A DNA stretch of 64,000 bases from contig NZ_PISP01000001.1 in the NCBI RefSeq assembly GCF_002834295.1, forward strand, positions 620,001 to 684,000, in the 5' to 3' direction. Position 1 is the first letter of the stretch; each line of letters opens with the position of its first letter. Under the pieces are notes generated by a model. It was given only the letters and a program-made list of their open reading frames with translations. It had not been told where the DNA came from and ran no database searches. Below, in pieces: positions 2 to 12,595 of this stretch. This DNA is from Rhodohalobacter barkolensis (GTDB taxonomy: Bacteria > Bacteroidota > Rhodothermia > Balneolales > Balneolaceae). Both the position numbers and the translations under genes were made by a program.

Positions 2-514
2 ACGAAGTATCTTATCTCTAAAGGAAACCGACAAATCGCAGTTCTATCAGCGAATGCGAACTCGATTCCCATTCGTGATCGCTTAAAAGGGTACAGAAGG
101 GCTTTGGACGAATTTGAAATACCATATGATGAAAACCTGATTATTACCGGAGACAGTATGGAGCGCGACGGATTTACCGAGTTGAGCGGTTATCAGGCTA
201 TGAATAAAATTTTAAACCTTGATCCTATACCCGACGCTGTGTTTTGCACGTCCGATACCAAAGCTGTAGGTGCCCAAAAAGCGTTAAAGGAGCATGGCGT
301 GCATCTCCCGCTCATCAGTTTTGATAACCTAACGATTGCGGAGTACATCGGGCTCTCGACAGTCAATCAACCCATGTACGACATGGGATTCCGAGCTACC
401 AATAAACTCATTCAGAGATTGCACAACCCGGATCTGCGTATTAGCAACGAGGTTCATCATCCGGAACTTGTGATTCGCTCTTCATCAGAGAAATTAAAAG
501 AAGTAACATCATGA
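2..514 (+). CDS. LacI-family transcriptional regulator, C-terminal part (5' end outside window)
   Basis: The open frame runs in from the left edge and ends at a TGA that overlaps the next ATG (ATGA). The visible ~170 residues form the last part of a LacI/PurR-type sugar-binding domain: a 'DRLKGYRRAL' helix, 'AVFCTSDTKAVGAQKAL' (the usual 'P.AvfaasD..A.Ga..al'), 'LISFDN' and 'STVNQPMYDMGF'. The DNA-binding helix-turn-helix lies outside the window. Its translational coupling to an amylase gene, and the SusCDE genes nearby, suggest that it senses a maltodextrin-type ligand and controls this starch locus; that role is inference. The family is clear, the ligand is not. Confidence 0.88.
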   Translation, partial: TKYLISKGNRQIAVLSANANSIPIRDRLKGYRRALDEFEIPYDENLIITGDSMERDGFTELSGYQAMNKILNLDPIPDAVFCTSDTKAVGAQKALKEHGVHLPLISFDNLTIAEYIGLSTVNQPMYDMGFRATNKLIQRLHNPDLRISNEVHHPELVIRSSSEKLKEVTS

Positions 515-3399
515 ATTTAGATCTTAGAAAAACGGCCTTTCTTCTTCTCCCGCTAATATTGCTGGCGCAAACCTTAGCGGCACAAGTCATAACAACCGAA
601 CCTGCTTTTCCTACGGAGGATGAGCCTCTTACAATTATTTTTGATGCATCTGAAGATCCGGGAGGAGAACTGGAGGGATACACAGGTAATCTTTATGCTC
701 ATACAGGTTTAATTGTATCAGAATCAGATCAAGGTACTTCAGAATGGGAGTATGTGATTGGTACCTGGGGAGATAACAGTGCTCAGCCTCAATTGACAAG
801 CTTGGGCAATGATCGTTGGGAGCTGGAGATTAATGACATTCGGGACTTCTATGATGTCCCGGCCACTGAGGATAAAATTTATCAAATTGCTATTGTCTTT
901 CGCAGTTCGGATGGCAATAGCCAGTCTCGGCCGGATCTTTTTATTGATCTCTACGATGATGAACTTCTGGTTCGTTTTACCCGGCCGGATGTATCTGCCC
1001 TGAATCCCTTTTTTGCTGAAGTGGGAGAGACGGTCAACCTGCAGGCGGAAGCATCATCCACCAATCCAATCCAGTCATTAACTCTCTTTGAAGGTAATAC
1101 CGAACTGGCCAGTACCACCGAAACTTCCCTGGAGTACGACTATAATGTAACAAGCTCCGGACGTACCGATTTTGTCATAGAAGTAGAGGATGATCAGGGA
1201 AATGTTGAGTCTGACTCCCTCTATATAATGGTAAATCCTCCCGTAAATGTACAGGCTCGCCCGAATGGGATAGAAGATGGAATTCACTATCACGAGGATC
1301 CATCTACCGTTACCTTCTCCTTTTATGCACCGGATAAGCAATTTGCTTACCTGATTGGGGATATGACGGACTGGGAAATCAGTGAAGATCATTTCATGAA
1401 TCTGGATGAAACTGATCCGACCGGAAACCGTTTTTGGATTACATTGAACGATTTAACACCGGGTGAGATCTATCGCTTTCAGTATTTTATTGATGGTGAA
1501 ATCCGTGTAGCTGATCTCTATTCAGAGCTGATTCTGGATAGAAATAACGACCAGTATATTGATGAGTCGATCTATCCAAATATGCCACAGTATCCGCATG
1601 GTTTAACGGAAGATGCCGTTACTGTTATTGAGCCGGGTAGTGAAGAATATGAGTGGCAAGTACCCGATTTTGAACGGCCTGCAAAAGAAGAGCTTGTGGT
1701 TTATGAGTTGTTGCTTAGAGATTTTGTGGAAGAGAGTTCGTTTGATGTTTTGACCGACACGCTCGACTACCTTGAAAATCTGGGCGTGAATGCCATAGAA
1801 CTGATGCCGGTTTCCGAATTCAGCGGTAATCTGAGCTGGGGTTATAATCCTGTTTTCCACGGAGCGCTGGACAAAGCGTATGGGTCAAAAGATTCTTTCA
1901 AGCGATTTGTGGATGAAGCTCACTCCAGGGGGATAGCTGTCCTGCTTGATGTAGTTTACAACCACGCTGAAGGAAACTCTCCTTTGATTCGAATTTACGG
2001 TTCAGATCGGAATTCAAATCCATTGATAGGGCCGGGACACGCATACAACGTATTTAATCACCTCAATCACGATCATCCCTACATTCAGTACTGGCTCGAC
2101 CGCATGAACCGATACTGGTTGGAGGAGTACAATGTTGACGGATACCGGTTTGATTTATCCAAGGGATTTGCGACAAACGTAAACACCGGAAACAATTTGA
2201 ACGGATATAATGCCGAACGAATTTCTAATCTGAAACGAATGGCGGATGCCATGTGGGAGGTTGACCCGGATTCGTACATCATTCTGGAGCATCTTGGGGC
2301 TGATTCTGAAGAGATAGAACTATCCGATTATGGCATGTTGCTGTGGGGAAATCAAAATCACACTTACAGTCAAGCTTCGATGGGATTTCAGGAAGAGTCC
2401 GATTTTTCACGTGTCTATTTTGGAAATCGGGGCTGGAATAATCCGTACCTGGTAGGGTATATGGAGAGCCACGATGAGCAGTGGATGATGTTCAGAAATC
2501 TCAATTTTGGGAATGAACTCAACGAAAATCATGATATTACCGAAGAGAGTGTCGCTTTAAACCGACAAAAACTGGCCGGTGCGTTTTTCTTCACCGTTCC
2601 GGGGCCTAAAATGATCTGGCAATTTGGCGAATTGGGTTACGGTGGCGGTCCGGGTGAGTGCCTTAAACCGGGAGACGGTTCAGACGGATCGTGTCTGTCA
2701 ACAGATCCCGGACGAACGGATGAAAAGCCGATTCGATGGGAATACTACGAAGATGAAAGTAGATACAGACTGTATCGTACCTGGTCAGAGTTACTGAGAC
2801 TTCGGAAATCCAGTCCGGTTTTCAGCAGTGCGGAAACGGAATTTGAATCATCCCTTGGTGGAGGCATCAAATGGATTCGGTTACAGCATCAGGATATGGA
2901 TGCGGTGATTGTAGGGAATTTCAGTGTGCTGTTCCGTGATGCCACAGTAGATTTTACCCAACAAGGGGAGTGGCATGAGTTTGTAACCGGAAATAGTCTT
3001 GATGTAGGCAATGTTCGCCAAACGTTTAATCTGGCACCGGGTGAAGTTCGAATCTATACGAGTGAATTTGTTGAGCCGGCTGAAGAGAATGTGTTTTTCC
3101 AGGTTGGGGAGAATGATTTTGGGCAATTGATCAGGGAATTGAATATCGACTCGAATTATCCGAATCCATTTAATCCCTCAACACAGATCAAATATGAAGT
3201 ACCGGAAGCCGGCTCGGTAGTACTGGATGTGTATGATGTTCTTGGAAGACGAGTAGCCACGTTGGTTCAGGATAATGAACATCCAAGAGGTGTATTTACC
3301 GTTGAGTTTGATGCTGCCGGACTCAGCAGCGGTGTTTATATTGCCCGCCTGAAGCAGGGAGATCAGGTGGTGTCGGAAAAGATGACGCTTATCAAGTAG
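511..3399 (+). CDS. Secreted GH13 alpha-amylase-family enzyme with type IX sorting domain
   Basis: 962 residues. A signal peptide covers about residues 1-24, followed by N-terminal beta domains and a CBM48-like E-set module near 265-345 ('FAYLIGDMTDWEI'). The GH13 barrel spans roughly 390-810 with all four conserved regions: region I 'DVVYNH' (D480-H485), region II 'GYRFDLSKG' with nucleophile D548, region III 'ILEHLG' with acid/base E593, and region IV 'MESHDEQ' with D655. The last ~80 residues are a type A type IX secretion sorting domain ('NYPNPFNPST', 'DVLGRRVATL', ending 'TLIK'). It should hydrolyse alpha-1,4-glucans outside the cell or on its surface and feed the SusCD system. It overlaps the LacI-type gene by 4 nt, so the two are probably co-transcribed. 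Exact specificity (amylase, neopullulanase or similar) cannot be fixed here. Confidence 0.93.
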   Translation: MNLDLRKTAFLLLPLILLAQTLAAQVITTEPAFPTEDEPLTIIFDASEDPGGELEGYTGNLYAHTGLIVSESDQGTSEWEYVIGTWGDNSAQPQLTSLGNDRWELEINDIRDFYDVPATEDKIYQIAIVFRSSDGNSQSRPDLFIDLYDDELLVRFTRPDVSALNPFFAEVGETVNLQAEASSTNPIQSLTLFEGNTELASTTETSLEYDYNVTSSGRTDFVIEVEDDQGNVESDSLYIMVNPPVNVQARPNGIEDGIHYHEDPSTVTFSFYAPDKQFAYLIGDMTDWEISEDHFMNLDETDPTGNRFWITLNDLTPGEIYRFQYFIDGEIRVADLYSELILDRNNDQYIDESIYPNMPQYPHGLTEDAVTVIEPGSEEYEWQVPDFERPAKEELVVYELLLRDFVEESSFDVLTDTLDYLENLGVNAIELMPVSEFSGNLSWGYNPVFHGALDKAYGSKDSFKRFVDEAHSRGIAVLLDVVYNHAEGNSPLIRIYGSDRNSNPLIGPGHAYNVFNHLNHDHPYIQYWLDRMNRYWLEEYNVDGYRFDLSKGFATNVNTGNNLNGYNAERISNLKRMADAMWEVDPDSYIILEHLGADSEEIELSDYGMLLWGNQNHTYSQASMGFQEESDFSRVYFGNRGWNNPYLVGYMESHDEQWMMFRNLNFGNELNENHDITEESVALNRQKLAGAFFFTVPGPKMIWQFGELGYGGGPGECLKPGDGSDGSCLSTDPGRTDEKPIRWEYYEDESRYRLYRTWSELLRLRKSSPVFSSAETEFESSLGGGIKWIRLQHQDMDAVIVGNFSVLFRDATVDFTQQGEWHEFVTGNSLDVGNVRQTFNLAPGEVRIYTSEFVEPAEENVFFQVGENDFGQLIRELNIDSNYPNPFNPSTQIKYEVPEAGSVVLDVYDVLGRRVATLVQDNEHPRGVFTVEFDAAGLSSGVYIARLKQGDQVVSEKMTLIK

Positions 3400-5026: not shown

Positions 5027-6124
5027 CTAATTTATGGCAGCTGTTCCATCTCTGAAGTTGAGCTCAATCGTAGCTTCACCTGCAGGAATTGCAACTCTAT
5101 CCTGATCGCCACCAGTTCCTCTGAACTCAATGTTTCCATCGAAGAAAATGAATTCTGATTGCCACCAGTCAGTGAACCACCCACCATCATACCAAGCATA
5201 CATTCTTAGATCTCCAGCTAGGAAATCTTTTGTAATAGTTAGTACTTCATTGGCATTATCTACAGTGAAAAGGTTTTCAGGTACGTTGCTATCCCAACTA
5301 TCAACTGTATCACCAATTAAATAAACCTGTGGTTCAACAACTGCAACTTCATCAGTTTCAAGGTTAACAACGACCATATAATAACCGGATTCACCGGGAT
5401 CTGGCATATTATTTGTTCCGATGCCATGTACTCCTTCAACAGGATCATTTCCATCCCATCCGAAGTCTTCACCCCAACCTTGTTCCGGGGCAAATTTATA
5501 ACCTGCATCATTTACACCAGATTCAATCCATACGATTTTCCAGAATAGGTAAGGTTTATCAAATACTGGAATCATTGGTAAATCAACAGCAGCCCAATCC
5601 CAACTACCTACACTAGCTCCAATCATATATAGTTCTTCAGGATAAGATGGAGCAAGAGATTCATCTTCATATGGAGTGACACCTATTTCTACTGGTCGAG
5701 AATGCAAGGTTTGAATATTGTCATTGACATCAGCTCTAACTCGAATGTTTATAACTGATTCGACATCGAATGGAAGATCTGCACCTAGGAGGCTAGCATT
5801 TAAATCTTCTATTACGGGAGAAAAGTTATGACTACCCCGAACAGATGCAAGTTCTACAGGATCTTCAAAAGAATCACCCTCTGCATCCATTTCGATGGTG
5901 TATTCAACGGCTGCATCATATCCATATTCAGCAGGAGACCATTCCATCATTTCTAATTCTTCTTCTTTGTCTTCTTCATTTAGTACAAATGAAGCACCAT
6001 TTGCCGGTTCCATAATTTCAGGAGCTTCAGGAGCTCCATCCATCACCGGTCCCATTGAGTCTTCACACGAGGTGAAGACCAACAGTCCGAAAATCGCCAA
6101 TAACGATATAATTGATTTTTTCAT
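5027..6124 (-). CDS. susE: SusE/SusF-family outer-membrane starch-binding lipoprotein
   Basis: 365 residues. A lipoprotein signal ends at 'LLVFTSC' with lipidated Cys20. Residues ~30-150 resemble the SusE N-terminal fibronectin-like domain ('APEIMEPANGASFVLNE', 'EWSPAEYGYDAAVEYTIEM'). Two starch-binding-type modules follow: about 162-265 ('LYMIGASVGSWDW', 'YKFAPEQGWGEDFGW') and about 266-365 ('VYLIGDTVDSWDS', 'WYDGGWFTDWW'), rich in the Trp residues that stack on glucose rings. The family helps capture starch at the cell surface. It lies 28 nt after susD in the same operon and is the last gene before the terminator. It has two binding modules, as SusE does, not the three of SusF. Confidence 0.88.
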   Translation of the reverse strand: MKKSIISLLAIFGLLVFTSCEDSMGPVMDGAPEAPEIMEPANGASFVLNEEDKEEELEMMEWSPAEYGYDAAVEYTIEMDAEGDSFEDPVELASVRGSHNFSPVIEDLNASLLGADLPFDVESVINIRVRADVNDNIQTLHSRPVEIGVTPYEDESLAPSYPEELYMIGASVGSWDWAAVDLPMIPVFDKPYLFWKIVWIESGVNDAGYKFAPEQGWGEDFGWDGNDPVEGVHGIGTNNMPDPGESGYYMVVVNLETDEVAVVEPQVYLIGDTVDSWDSNVPENLFTVDNANEVLTITKDFLAGDLRMYAWYDGGWFTDWWQSEFIFFDGNIEFRGTGGDQDRVAIPAGEATIELNFRDGTAAIN

Positions 6125-6152: not shown

Positions 6153-8081
6153 TTAGTAACCCGGATTCTGGGTCAGGTTCAGATTCGAGTTGATATCTGA
6201 AGACGGAATCGGATAAATTTCAAAGTGGCTGCTAGTACCAGCTCCTTCCTGAACATCTCCTTTCCAGGACCAGATATAATCGTCACCGGTAAAAAGTCCG
6301 AATCTTCTCAGGTCCGTTCTTCTATGACCTTCCCAATAGAGTTCCCGTGTTCTTTCCTGTAAAATCAGGTCCAGATTAAGATCTCCTGCTGATATATTTC
6401 CAGAATCGTTACCGTATGCACGTTCACGAAGTTCATTGATATAATCTGCAGCTGTCGAGGCGCTTCCACCTGAAGCACCGCGGACGGTTGCTTCAGCATA
6501 CATCAGATAGACATCAGCAAGACGGAACATTGGGAAATCGGTATCGGCGAATTCCGTACGTTTACCGGGCTGACCTGTGGATGTAATGTTTTTCCACTTG
6601 GTAACAGCATATCCGTTGGTGAATTCTGCGAGCTCTTCGATTTCAAGAGATTGGCCGTCGGTGTAGAACATTGCCCGACCTTCAGAAGTAGCAAGTTCTA
6701 AATCGTAGGTCATCGCATTCAGATCAACGGTGATATTATAAACTCCGGCTTGGTCAACCGTAATGTTGTCACCGCCATTTGTAAGCGTTCCGTTAGATCC
6801 TCCGTAGTCACCATCATCCCATGTTGGGGTGGGAGTGAATTTAAATTCAGAACCGGCCGCAGCGAAGTAAACCTGTCCGCTGTAAACATCATCACTATTC
6901 TCTGATATGAGAGCAGGGGCCTCGGCAGGTGACCAATCACCGCCATAACCGCTTGAACTTTGGTAACCGCCCGGAACATAAATTTCTGGAAAACCACCGG
7001 TATTTTCTGTTTGAACACCACTGAATGTGTCAGAATCGTCAAAGAAATCAACGAACTGAGGTGTAACTCTGTGTCCGGCCCAGCCACCATCCATCCCGAA
7101 AGAGGAGGCACTCATGCTACCACCAATCGCTGCGTGAATAATGAAGTTGGTTCCACCAAAGGTTTGAAGGTTTTCGCCATCAAAACGTATTGGGAAGATA
7201 ATTTCAGAAGCCCCTTCATTGCTGTCGTTATCAGCAAAGAATAGATTTTCATAGTTCTCGGCCAGATCGTATCCACCTTCGTTGATCACTCGTTCTGCAT
7301 AGGTAAGTGCATCGTCATAGCGATCTTCACCAATATAAACTTCCGCATTGAGGTAGAGTTTGGATAAGAGAGTCCAGGCAGCACCTTGATCGGCACGTCC
7401 GTACTCATTCTGTCCGGGTGCCTGAAGGTCGTCCTGTATGTCAAGAAGTTCACTTTCAATGTATGCGAACAAATCCTGTGCATTGGTTTGCTCCGGCATA
7501 TAGGCTCCGATTGGGTCCTCTTCGGTAGTAAATGGAACATTACCGCCAAAGAGATCCAGTGCGTGCCAGTAACTCAGGGCTCGCAAAAAACGGGCTTCAG
7601 CTTCCATTTCTTTTATAATGCTTTCATCACGCTTTTGAGTTTCACGTATAAACTCATTTGTAAGAGCAACCTCATAAAAAATTCGGCTGTACATAGCCAT
7701 CACGAAGTCATTGGAAGGCCCCCAATCATGGAAATTGAATTCTGGAAGTCCTTCATCATTCCAGCCTACAACAGCTTCGTCGGTACTGATAACTTGGTGA
7801 ACCCAAAGCTGACGAATATAGCTTGAAAAACCTTCGTCAATTCCCTGGATATCGGCGTTTCCGGCCGGACCTTGTTGTCCGGTTGCCGCAAAGCCGGCAT
7901 ATAATTTTGCTAAAACCTGACGGAAATCATCAGGAGTATCGTACACATTCGTAGATGTGACTACATCATCGTCGATCGGAGACGTGTTCAAATCGTCCAC
8001 ACAAGAAGTAGCGAACGCAACCGTCAATGCAACGAGGATCAGTGCTAATATTTTAAATTTGTTATTCAACATAATCGTCAA
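6153..8081 (-). CDS. susD: SusD/RagB-family lipoprotein with an inserted SusE-like binding module
   Basis: 642 residues. A lipoprotein signal ends at 'AFATSC' (Cys27). SusD hallmarks are present: N-terminal TPR-like helices, 'EARFLRALSYWHALDLFGG' (162-180), 'ALTYAERVINEGGYDL' (258-273), and the C-terminal 'FPMFRLADVYLMYAEA' (516-531) and 'ERTRELYWEGHRRTDLRRFG'. Between about residues 365 and 465, where a typical SusD has only a short linker, there is a SusE/SusF-type module: 'IYVPGGYQ', 'EFKFTPTPTWDDGDYGG', 'LTNGGDNITV', 'YNITVDLNAMTYDLEL'. SusD forms the lid of the SusC transporter and binds the glycan, so the insert probably adds a second starch-binding surface. It lies 16 nt after susC. 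Confidence 0.93.
   Translation of the reverse strand: MTIMLNNKFKILALILVALTVAFATSCVDDLNTSPIDDDVVTSTNVYDTPDDFRQVLAKLYAGFAATGQQGPAGNADIQGIDEGFSSYIRQLWVHQVISTDEAVVGWNDEGLPEFNFHDWGPSNDFVMAMYSRIFYEVALTNEFIRETQKRDESIIKEMEAEARFLRALSYWHALDLFGGNVPFTTEEDPIGAYMPEQTNAQDLFAYIESELLDIQDDLQAPGQNEYGRADQGAAWTLLSKLYLNAEVYIGEDRYDDALTYAERVINEGGYDLAENYENLFFADNDSNEGASEIIFPIRFDGENLQTFGGTNFIIHAAIGGSMSASSFGMDGGWAGHRVTPQFVDFFDDSDTFSGVQTENTGGFPEIYVPGGYQSSSGYGGDWSPAEAPALISENSDDVYSGQVYFAAAGSEFKFTPTPTWDDGDYGGSNGTLTNGGDNITVDQAGVYNITVDLNAMTYDLELATSEGRAMFYTDGQSLEIEELAEFTNGYAVTKWKNITSTGQPGKRTEFADTDFPMFRLADVYLMYAEATVRGASGGSASTAADYINELRERAYGNDSGNISAGDLNLDLILQERTRELYWEGHRRTDLRRFGLFTGDDYIWSWKGDVQEGAGTSSHFEIYPIPSSDINSNLNLTQNPGY
6687..6989 (-). 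other. Inserted SusE/SusF-like starch-binding module within SusD
   Basis: This part encodes approximately residues 365-465 of the SusD protein. It contains the pattern seen in SusE/SusF C-terminal modules: a start strand, 'AGSEFKFTPTPTWDDGDYGG', a 'GGDNI' turn, and a closing 'GVYNITVDLNAMTYDLEL' strand pair. SusD-type sequence resumes after it ('MFYTDGQSLEIEELAEFTNG'). The module boundaries are estimates. Confidence 0.75.
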
Positions 8082-8097
8082 GATTAAGATTTTTCAA

Positions 8098-11088
8098 TTA
8101 AAAGTTGAGATTCAGTCCCAACATAAAGGTGCGTGGCCGTGGATAGAGATTGAAATCAATTCCTCCAAATACCTCAGGATCCTGCCCGCTATAGTCCGTA
8201 ATCGTAAATACGTTCTGTACCGTAGCAGATACTCTCATTGAAGAGACCAGATCGAATAGACTGTCGAAAGTATATCCTAACGAAACGTTGTCCAGTCTTA
8301 CAAAAGATGCATTTTCAACGTAGTGATCTGATCGATATTGAGCCGCTTCGAAACCGGTTTCATAAATGTACTCTGTAGGATTCATAGTAAATCCTGCAGT
8401 GTTGTACACTGAGTCATAGAAACCCCTGTCAGATGCTACGTTGTTATAAACATAGTTGCCGATACTTGCACGTGCAGAGAATGAAGCGTCCCATTGCTTG
8501 TACTCATAACGTGAGGACAAACCGAGTGTGTAGTCCGGATTTGGACTCTTATATCGGTACTTGTCTGCTTCATCAATCACGCCGTCTCCGTTTCTGTCAA
8601 CATATAGTCCTTCAATCGGTGCACCATTCTGGTCATAAACCTGCTCAAACACAAAGAATGAGTTTCTTGGGAAACCAACACTGTGTACTTGAACTTGGTT
8701 ACCGGTACCGCCGGCAATTCCACCCACTTCAACACCTACATAGGTTGGATCATCAGCCGTTGTCAGCTTCGTAATCTCATCTATGTTATAGGTAGCGTTG
8801 AACGTTACCTGCCAGTATGAATCTTCTGTAGATAGCAATCTGGTTGTGATATCAAACTCAAGACCCTGTACTTCAAGCGAACCGACATTCGAAAGGATTC
8901 GGTTTGTGAAGTTTGTTCCGGCTGGAACAGGAATCACGTTCAGGAGGTCATCCGTTTCCCGCAGATAATATTCAATGGAGCCGAAAAATCTCTCTCCAAA
9001 TATGCTATAGTCGAGGGCTACGTTATATGTCGTGGTTTCTTCCCATTTCAGTTCAGAATTGTATCCTTCTGGACGCAGGGTTGTAATCCATTCATTACCG
9101 AATGCATAACGTGCTGTGTTTTGACCAAAGGTGTACTGAGGCAGATATGGGTAATTACCTTGCCCAATTCGCTGCTGGCCTGTAACACCGTAACCGAGTC
9201 TCAACTTCAACTCATTGATGTTCTCAGAATCTTCCAGGAAGCTCTCTTCATGCATCTGCCATGCAAACGCGAAAGAAGGGAAGAGTCCCCAGCGGTTATC
9301 TTCAGAGAATCTGGATGTACCATCATAACGCAGAGTACCTGTTAACAGATATCTGTCCTTGAACGAGTAGTTTGCACGACCAAAGAATGATGTGATATAG
9401 TATTCAGTAGCATAATCAGTATCACTGTCTACACGCACGGCCTGCGAACGGTCGAAGTTGGTTGAGTAGTTTGAACCCTCTTCGAAGTGATGCTCCCAGG
9501 AGTATCCTGCTGTTAAATCCAGTGAACTTTCAATGGATTCCAGGTCTGTGTTATAGTTTAGATAAAAATCGAGAAGTTCATTCTCTTTTCTCTGGTCATA
9601 ATCCGATTGAACACCGGAAAGTCCCTGTCCGTCAAAAGCAAAGGCAGCTTCATCACTTACCAGAACTTTACCGTCTCCAACATCAGAGTAGTCCAGTCCA
9701 AGGTTTAGCGTAGCGGTCAGTTCTTCAAAGAATGAAGGATTGTAATCCATTTTAACATTACCGATTAATCGATAAACGGTAGATTCATCTCTTCGTTGGT
9801 CAATCAGTGCAACCGGGTTGGCCGGTGCAATAGGAATTGGATTTCCATCGCCGTCTAACCAGGCGGTATATCCACCATACTGACTTCCTCCGGACATTAC
9901 AGGCTGAGTCGGGTCGAAGTTAATAGCAGTGTTAATTGCCCCCTGATCAGCAAATCTGTTGTCAACACGTGTTCCTCTAGCATTCAATTCAATAGCGAGC
10001 TGGTCATCTAACAGAGATGGGTTCAATGCGATAGAACCTGTTAATCGATCATTATAAGAGGTTTTCAAAACACCCTGATTCCCTGAGAAACCTAAAGATG
10101 CACGATAAGGTAAATTCCCTACAGCACCGCTTACACTTATATTATGGTCCTGGCTAAAGGTGTTACGGAAAATTTCATCCTGCCAGTCTGTTTGGCTGTT
10201 GCCCAATGTGTTCAGAGCACCTGAAGGCAGACTACCGTTGTCAACACCGATTTCTACAAACTGTTGGAATCTTTCAGCACTTAGTGCATCAATTCGATCC
10301 GAGTTTGTTTGGTAAGAGTATCGTCCGGTATAATTAACTTCGACATCCTGCCCGGTTTCGCCTCTCTTGGTGGTGATAATAATAACACCGTTAGAAGCAC
10401 GTGAACCGTAAATGGCAGTAGCTGAAGCATCCTTTAGTACGGTAATCGACTCAATGTCGTTCGGGTTAATGGAGTTGAGTGGACTTCTCATACCGGAAAT
10501 ACCACCGTCATCCAATGGAACTCCATCTACAACATATAACGGATCGTTACTTGCTGATAGGGAAGAACCTCCACGAATACGAATGGTTGCGCCCGCGCCG
10601 GGTGCACCACTGTTGGATGTTACCTGAACACCGGCGGCGCGTCCCTGGAACAGCTCTTCGGGGGAAGTAATTGCACCAGCATTGAAATCCCTTGAGCTTA
10701 CAACACGTACAGAACCGGTGTTATCACCTCGTTCCTGAACGCCGTAACCAATTACGACCAGTTCTGAAAGAGCCTGAACATCCGTGCTCATTTCTACATC
10801 AATGGTTTCGCGTCCGTCAACCGGTATTTCTCTGGTGACAAATCCTATGTAAGAAAATACCAATACATCATCGGCACTTACTTGAAGGGAGTATTCACCA
10901 TCGAGGTTTGTAGTAGTACCTCGATCCGGTGAACCCTTTACGGTGATATTAACACCGGGCAAGGATTCACCCGTTTCTAATTCTGTTACCGTACCGCTGA
11001 CCGTCAGTTCAGATTGTGCATGCGCCGGCAGGGCGTACGAACAAAAGAACAAGACCAGAAGCAGGCTGAGTAGCTGTTTTACCTTCAT
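8098..11088 (-). CDS. susC: SusC/RagA-family TonB-linked outer-membrane transporter
   Basis: 996 residues. A signal peptide ends near residue 24 ('ALPAHA'), then comes a carboxypeptidase-regulatory-like domain (about 28-105; 'VSGTVTELETGESLPGVNITV'), a TonB-box-like 'LSELVVIGYG', and the plug with SusC signatures 'RIRGGSSLSASNDPLYVVDGVPLDD' split across about 170-195 and 'ITVLKDASATAIYGSRASNGVI' near 215-237. The rest is a 22-strand-type barrel ending in 'GLNLNF' with a terminal Phe. It imports maltodextrins across the outer membrane with SusD as lid, powered by TonB. It is the first gene of susC-susD-susE; two LacI-family-like operators lie 50 and 150 nt upstream. Confidence 0.95.
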   Translation of the reverse strand: MKVKQLLSLLLVLFFCSYALPAHAQSELTVSGTVTELETGESLPGVNITVKGSPDRGTTTNLDGEYSLQVSADDVLVFSYIGFVTREIPVDGRETIDVEMSTDVQALSELVVIGYGVQERGDNTGSVRVVSSRDFNAGAITSPEELFQGRAAGVQVTSNSGAPGAGATIRIRGGSSLSASNDPLYVVDGVPLDDGGISGMRSPLNSINPNDIESITVLKDASATAIYGSRASNGVIIITTKRGETGQDVEVNYTGRYSYQTNSDRIDALSAERFQQFVEIGVDNGSLPSGALNTLGNSQTDWQDEIFRNTFSQDHNISVSGAVGNLPYRASLGFSGNQGVLKTSYNDRLTGSIALNPSLLDDQLAIELNARGTRVDNRFADQGAINTAINFDPTQPVMSGGSQYGGYTAWLDGDGNPIPIAPANPVALIDQRRDESTVYRLIGNVKMDYNPSFFEELTATLNLGLDYSDVGDGKVLVSDEAAFAFDGQGLSGVQSDYDQRKENELLDFYLNYNTDLESIESSLDLTAGYSWEHHFEEGSNYSTNFDRSQAVRVDSDTDYATEYYITSFFGRANYSFKDRYLLTGTLRYDGTSRFSEDNRWGLFPSFAFAWQMHEESFLEDSENINELKLRLGYGVTGQQRIGQGNYPYLPQYTFGQNTARYAFGNEWITTLRPEGYNSELKWEETTTYNVALDYSIFGERFFGSIEYYLRETDDLLNVIPVPAGTNFTNRILSNVGSLEVQGLEFDITTRLLSTEDSYWQVTFNATYNIDEITKLTTADDPTYVGVEVGGIAGGTGNQVQVHSVGFPRNSFFVFEQVYDQNGAPIEGLYVDRNGDGVIDEADKYRYKSPNPDYTLGLSSRYEYKQWDASFSARASIGNYVYNNVASDRGFYDSVYNTAGFTMNPTEYIYETGFEAAQYRSDHYVENASFVRLDNVSLGYTFDSLFDLVSSMRVSATVQNVFTITDYSGQDPEVFGGIDFNLYPRPRTFMLGLNLNF

Positions 11089-11253: not shown

Positions 11254-11590
11254 TCTTGTCTTATTAATCTAATAATTTTTTGTGAAGATTCCTTAAAGAG
11301 AGTTCACAATTCTTGCTATCTAATAGATTAAAATAGGCTTATGATATCGTTCAGAGTTTAAAAAACAGATAATAAGCCAAAATACTCTTATATCATGTAT
11401 TTAACCATAGGCCAAATCAGGTTTAACCCGATTTTAGAAGGGGTATAAACTTTTAATGAAATGCTTTAATCTTATGATAATTCATAAATATTTCTTTGTT
11501 TTGTGCGCGTGTATTTGACCGCATGAAGCTCAGGCCTCTTAAGTCAGCACAGATAGAATTAGTCAGTTGCGAATCCAACAAAATGAAAAC
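11254..11590. other. Divergent intergenic region between susC and the EIIC-like gene
   Basis: AT-rich spacer that must hold promoters for both the minus-strand sus operon and the plus-strand EIIC-like gene. I could not find a convincing TAnnTTTG/TTTG Bacteroidota-type promoter, and I see no gene or RNA in it. Confidence 0.4.
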
Positions 11591-12595
11591 ATGTCATTTC
11601 TGAAAAGTAAGGGGATAGATATCTCATTTAATACCTATGTGATTACAGCACTGTCACATATGGCTCTGGGGTTATTTGCCTCACTAATCATAGGACTCAT
11701 TATTCGGACAGCCGGCGAGCAGTTTGAGATAGATATGCTGGTATCTGTTGGTCAAATGGCAATGGATCTGATGGGTCCGGCAATTGGAGTTGCCATCGCG
11801 TATGGTTTGAAAGCTCCGCCTCTGGTTCTGTTTGCCTCAGCTGTGGCAGGTGCATTTGGCTCAGCTTCCGGTGGACCCGCGGGTGCTTATATAGCGTCGC
11901 TGCTTGCGGTTGAGTTTGGGAAACTGATTTCCGGATCAACAAAAATCGACATTATAGCCACGCCACTGGTTACTATTTTTGTTGGGTATTTTGCAGCTGA
12001 ATATATTGGAGTGTTTATCAACCAGGGAATGCTGGCTTTTGGTGAGTTGATCAATTGGTCGGTAGATCAGCATCCGTTTTTTATGGGAATCTTGGTGGCC
12101 TCTTTAATGGGATTGGCACTCACAGCACCAATCTCCAGTGCAGCCATTGCCATCATGCTGGGCCTGGACGGACTGGCAGCCGGGGCTGCTACAGTTGGAT
12201 GTTCTGCACAAATGATTGGGTTTGCCGTGAGCAGTTACAGAGAGAATGGAGTGGGAGGATTAATTGCTCAGGGGATAGGAACTTCTATGCTGCAGATTGC
12301 AAACGTACTGAAGAAACCACTCATCATTCTGCCCCCGCTTATTGCCGGTGCGATATTAGCACCACTTTCTACCACACTCTTTAAAATGACAAACACTCCG
12401 GAAGGAGCAGGGATGGGAACCAGCGGATTTGTCGGACAGATCTTTACATTTACATCAATGGGATTTGATACTGTAGTTCTTCTCCAGGTGGCACTGCTTC
12501 ACTTCATTGGTCCGGCGTTAATTTGCTGGATGATTTCAGAATTATTCAGGAGAAAAAATTGGATTTCGTTTGGTGATATGAAAATTCAAAGTTAA
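11591..12595 (+). CDS. PTS EIIC-like integral membrane protein (PTS_EIIC_2 type)
   Basis: 334 residues from the ATG at 11591; a TTG 24 nt upstream could extend it by 8 residues. The protein is almost entirely hydrophobic helices (about nine or ten), with Gly-rich stretches such as 'AVAGAFGSASGGPAGAYIAS' and 'APISSAAIAIMLGLDGLAAG', resembling the PTS_EIIC_2 family of sugar-PTS-like membrane domains. No EIIA or EIIB domain is fused and no EI/HPr gene is present in the window. It is separate from the sus genes on the opposite strand. Family fairly likely; substrate and energy coupling unknown. Confidence 0.7.
   Translation: MSFLKSKGIDISFNTYVITALSHMALGLFASLIIGLIIRTAGEQFEIDMLVSVGQMAMDLMGPAIGVAIAYGLKAPPLVLFASAVAGAFGSASGGPAGAYIASLLAVEFGKLISGSTKIDIIATPLVTIFVGYFAAEYIGVFINQGMLAFGELINWSVDQHPFFMGILVASLMGLALTAPISSAAIAIMLGLDGLAAGAATVGCSAQMIGFAVSSYRENGVGGLIAQGIGTSMLQIANVLKKPLIILPPLIAGAILAPLSTTLFKMTNTPEGAGMGTSGFVGQIFTFTSMGFDTVVLLQVALLHFIGPALICWMISELFRRKNWISFGDMKIQS

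Follow-up and report, generated by a model that had tools for sequence, protein, structure and literature searches.

Analysis of a 64,000-nucleotide stretch of Rhodohalobacter barkolensis DNA (the window) indicates that the lid loop of a SusD protein carries, just after W334, an inserted X25 module of SusE/SusF type that probably holds alpha-glucan near the SusCD mouth as a second site. The protein is encoded by a susD-like gene on the reverse strand (6153–8081, a mechanical open reading frame of 642 residues in which translation more likely begins at the ATG at 8072), and in hmmscan this frame matched the SusD_RagB and SusD-like_3 profiles above their cut-offs (133.2 and 27.8 bits). Its SusD fold was confirmed by VIA-align (Z 39.9 to 3jys and about 37 to SusD), and its translation carries a lipoprotein signal whose lipobox ends in TSC27. 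An adjacent susC-like gene encodes a TonB-dependent transporter (8098–11088, reverse strand, 996 residues), and a susE-like gene (5027–6124, reverse strand, 365 residues) encodes a SusE N-terminal domain followed by a SusF_SusE region; PF14292, the profile of that N-terminal domain, matched the separate susE gene and found nothing in the SusD protein. A GH13-type enzyme with a T9SS sorting tail (511–3399, forward strand) supports the assignment to an alpha-glucan locus, its CBM48 match being weak (17.9 bits, below the 22.4 cut-off). The susCDE operon is adjoined by a membrane protein of the PTS_EIIC_2 family (11567–12595, forward strand, 315.6 bits). The SusE is a mosaic relative to its homologs, being 64% identical to the R. 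halophilus SusE over its first 150 residues and 32% over its C-terminal half; the latter is 69% and 67% identical to counterparts in two other genomes (G099 and G022), with first halves at 45% and 43%, and it looks as if the glycan-binding half had been exchanged between lineages.

Outside the insert the protein resembles the prototype closely. The starch site of Bacteroides thetaiotaomicron SusD includes D73, R81, W98, N101, Y296 and W320, and the equivalents in the window protein are D82, R90, W107 (codon 7761–7763, reverse strand, placed by PDB alignment), D109, F308 and W334 (codon 7080–7082, reverse strand, 16 residues ahead of the insert). Four of these (the equivalents of D73, R81, W98 and W320) are identical, and substitutions are found at N101 (D109), Y296 (F308) and W96 (V105); the core starch site is retained. 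The two proteins (compare 3CK7–3CKC) also share the fold, with Z of about 37, and the position of the gene between susC and susE, and the NF033071 model common to both scores 470 bits here, below its cut-off of 725. They differ in that the prototype has only a short extra loop after W320 and no X25 module.

The inserted segment with its short linkers comprises residues 351–466 (6684–7031, reverse strand), the approximate bounds having been set by alignment with orthologues that lack it and in which the site is otherwise continuous, and the X25/SusE-SusF module proper, a predicted beta-sandwich, occupies residues 365–464 (6690–6989, reverse strand). Motifs of SusE/SusF type, reported in an earlier note on this DNA at residues 365–465 (6989–6687), are present exactly there in the 642-residue frame, and the note's description of a SusE/SusF-like module within an otherwise normal SusD is borne out by the agreement of Pfam cut-offs, structure comparison and empty-site orthologues. 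In hmmscan, PF16411 (SusF_SusE) matched residues 380–476 with 38.2 bits (cut-off 27.5, E 2.3e-9) and PF22058 (X25_BaPul_like) matched residues 368–441 with 27.2 bits (cut-off 27), scores that place the match far over chance by profile. The module is closest in sequence to other SusD inserts and to the first modules of neighboring SusEs, and where relatives have a SusE gene beside susD, the first module of its product is 44–62% identical to the insert. Solved SusD structures align on either side of the insert and none across it, leaving a gap at residues ~336–456 against 3ck7 and ~351–466 against 3jys; the B. thetaiotaomicron prototype is thus without the module, as the note had held.

Structural comparison led to the same family. 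A whole-protein model returned only SusDs among its PDB matches, and the module was hence folded and searched separately. Predicted alone it reached a pLDDT of 87, and in the full-length model it was likewise confident, with low-confidence flanking linkers. VIA-align 2, applied to the isolated module, ranked SusF first (Z 11.6, rmsd 2.2, 92 aligned residues), followed by Sca5 X25-2 (Z 10.1), SusE (10.0 and 9.9) and the X25 of BaPul pullulanase (9.7), with starch-enzyme domains at 7.7 or below and unrelated folds at 5.7 or below. Foldseek placed the same kinds of protein first, albeit with weak E-values (best 2.2e-3), and a module profile searched against the PDB listed BaPul X25, Sca5 X25-2, SusF and SusE, weakly by sequence (E 0.002–0.12). 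Residues ~351–466 are accordingly an extra domain, a separate beta-sandwich of SusE/SusF fold, and the structure check proposed in the earlier note gave a resemblance to SusF and SusE and not to an ordinary loop.

The case for glucan binding rests on three positions. In Sca5 X25-2b, residues W620, K654 and W661 touch maltotriose, and this site is conserved in SusF (PMC9112005). Profile alignment equates them with W383 (codon 6933–6935), K414 (6840–6842) and W421 (6819–6821, all on the reverse strand), the K414-to-W421 spacing being that of K654 to W661. This triad is found in 12/12, 10/12 and 12/12 of the Balneolaceae SusD inserts, in 16/16 of the Flavobacteriaceae inserts at each position, and, among tandem inserts outside a degenerate Saprospiraceae clade, in 37/37, 36/37 and 35/37 of first modules and 36/38, 38/38 and 38/38 of second modules. 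It is likewise nearly invariant in SusE modules, and few of the ~95 columns of the module are as conserved as its three. With these ligand-contact positions and the core starch site both conserved, the lid is likely to have a second site for glucan. The X25 module would hang by short flexible linkers beside the SusCD mouth and would hold an alpha-glucan chain while the chain end sits at the SusC-SusD interface, so that, in addition to the separate SusE lipoprotein, each lid would have a low-affinity glucan tether of its own in 1:1 stoichiometry; this tethering step beside the barrel is one we infer. The failure of single isolated Sca5 X25 modules to bind maltooligosaccharides (PMC9112005) is a real caution against a second site, and the existence of close relatives without the insert and of one Saprospiraceae clade with a degenerate triad also counts against the tether.

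That clade bears on the principal alternative, in which the X25 fold acts as a docking element or spacer that contacts SusC, SusE or a surface amylase and organizes the complex, glucan binding being incidental. In the two-module SusDs of this subclade the modules are retained despite loss of the first-module triad (W in 2/16, K in 1/16, W in 0/16). A docking role is also in keeping with the packing of utilisome lipoproteins round the SusC rim (PMC7618045) and with the uptake function of B. thetaiotaomicron SusE, reported to be independent of starch binding in Foley 2018 as that study is cited in PMC11093988, a report that tempers the tether reading as well. Against docking stands the near-invariance of the triad in every other lineage examined, within a module that is otherwise mostly variable, and we regard this alternative as unlikely. 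Near the subclade SusDs lies a secreted protein of ~590–640 residues with five SusE-type module-2 repeats (L086:1727–3499, reverse strand; L087:11320–13086, forward strand; similar proteins in L156, L158, L161 and other loci), whose T9SS sorting tail was confirmed in L086. The triads are kept in 63–64 of the 66 modules of this protein, and since they are lost in the neighboring SusD, their conservation elsewhere suggests, on comparative grounds, that binding, not folding, is what is being maintained. PF14292 gave no match in 13 of the 14 genomes of this subclade, several of them MAGs whose completeness is not stated; for G184 and G262 it is given as 100%. A takeover by the lid of the role of a lost SusE was considered for this subclade and is unlikely, since the SusD-module triad is degenerate and a GH53 directly follows SusD in L086.

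Within the Balneolales the insert has a patchy distribution. A class-level profile search of 244 genomes found a close orthologue of the protein in 24 Balneolales genomes (27 copies), and an order-level search of 128 genomes found the insert in 12 Balneolaceae genomes of four genera. It is present in the closest orthologues (G019, 85% identical, G009 and G030) and absent from six others that are 63–72% identical overall (G007, G033, G022, G039, G015 and G036), where the chain is continuous, e.g., VTPEFVGLFDLDNDGRALF. One of the latter genomes, G007, has two insert-less SusD copies (L075 on contig C274 and L082 on C20), each near a contig end of a fragmented assembly. On a tree of SusD cores from which the insert had been removed the carriers fall in three Balneolaceae clades, and the best tree requires three changes or more, two of them forced by starred branches; these changes may be gains, losses or transfers. 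Such turnover, together with the absence of the insert from closely related species, is what would be expected if the insert were a neutral passenger, a SusE module that was duplicated and then tolerated by the loop without function of its own. This reading is improbable, more so than docking, because the insert is retained across genera in open frame with its ligand positions conserved, because dN is low against a saturated dS (dN 0.15 in comparison with R. halophilus, whose SusD has the same architecture), and because distant families have the same kind of module at this site. That the segment is an ordinary SusD loop, or results from an error of assembly or reading frame, has next to no chance of being correct: SusD length does vary at the site, where the B. 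thetaiotaomicron protein is ~30–40 residues longer than insert-less Balneolales, yet this reading is refuted by the Pfam profiles, the empty-site orthologues and the VIA-align fold matches, and the insert is intact in 12 Balneolaceae genomes and many from other families.

The architecture is not a one-off, occurring in dozens of SusDs across the phylum. At least 80 further loci were taken from genome contigs with a query that held insert-bearing SusDs, and after removal of duplicates and partial copies 114 SusDs were typed with module profiles derived from Balneolaceae SusEs; the set is carrier-enriched and its counts are not frequencies. A type-1 module was found in 12 SusDs, all of Balneolaceae, and a type-2 module in 16, from Flavobacteriaceae (among them Aureibaculum, Lutibacter, Psychroflexus, Lacinutrix, Winogradskyella and Olleya) and MAGs. 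Both types occur in tandem in 50 (Saprospiraceae, Prolixibacteraceae, Bacteroidales, Lewinellaceae and others), and a single 853-residue SusD of a Prolixibacteraceae MAG (L142:5968–8526, forward strand) has three modules; 33 SusDs have none and two have an unrelated insert. In Flavobacteriaceae SusDs encoded at L089:6817–8655 (reverse strand) and L090:5286–7124 (forward strand), a different, unassigned segment of ~85 residues occupies the same site. Among 394 genomes drawn evenly from the phylum, five outside the class were carriers (G382, G175, G219, G184 and G262). All inserts share one position in the core alignment, apparently a loop that tolerates variation in length and into which several lineages have taken one to three SusE-type modules. 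In module trees the Balneolaceae inserts group together and apart from SusE first modules, with weak support (43), and the hypothesis that every module-1 SusD insert goes back to one origin was not rejected (p-AU 0.45); an early small tree that favored separate origins for the Balneolaceae and tandem inserts was not relied on. More tentatively, and with the balance of our judgment slightly against it, SusD lids might be a modular platform: in different Bacteroidota families one loop next to the starch site would have gained, repeatedly and independently, a SusE-type module of type 1 or of type 2, both, or three modules, making the lid a multivalent glucan grapple that acts in capture as the lid opens and closes.

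The earlier note had gone further, proposing that a second glucan site in the lid explains why the operon keeps a two-module SusE and no SusF. The second site stands as the best reading, and the explanation does not. The R. barkolensis genome has PF16411 in the SusE and again in the SusD insert, two places in all, and lacks a SusF; insert-less Balneolales likewise have a SusE with an N-terminal domain and two modules, as in G033, G071, G073, G039, G036, G015 and the C274 locus of G007. No PF16411 proteins other than SusE-like ones were seen in insert-less relatives, in a non-exhaustive search in which G022, G097 and G101 gave no matches. On the relatives covered, the idea that the insert compensates for a missing SusF is therefore rejected.

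Comparison with known systems places both parts of the protein in familiar families. SusE and SusF modules (4FEM, 4FCH, 4FE9; PF16411) share the Pfam family and the fold of the insert (Z 10–11.6), and first modules of Balneolaceae SusEs are its best sequence matches, at up to 62%, but there the modules are borne on a separate lipoprotein, whereas here a single one lies inside SusD. The X25 modules of Ruminococcus bromii Sca5/Sas20 and of Bacillus acidopullulyticus pullulanase (7RPY, 2WAN) have the same fold (Z ~10) and an aligned Trp-Lys-Trp, but act as two lobes clamping one chain, in contrast to one module in a transporter lid. The alpha-glucan SusDs described from marine Flavobacteriia as looped and open (PMC11093988) likewise belong to alpha-glucan loci and vary close to the binding site, and by D82 and R90 the window protein resembles the looped kind, but in them a loop of ~17 residues varies and no starch-binding module is added. 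SusDs with inserted SusE/X25 modules were not found described in the open-access literature, to which the search was confined (subscription papers lay outside it), and what is new relative to those papers is the combination as a lid insertion, one, two or three modules being carried at a single site in several families.

In the current picture of SusCD uptake, the chain is caught by the glycan-binding surface lipoproteins SusE and SusF, and SusD shuts over the oligosaccharide once it has been cut. According to the levan/dextran utilisome paper (PMC7618045), no additional surface on which SusE, SusF and SusG could sit together is seen on the starch SusC. A lid with X25 modules of its own would couple capture to the lid at a fixed stoichiometry, and pairs with and without the insert in one genus offer a natural comparison for the effect of a lid site on affinity, chain-length range and the need for SusE.
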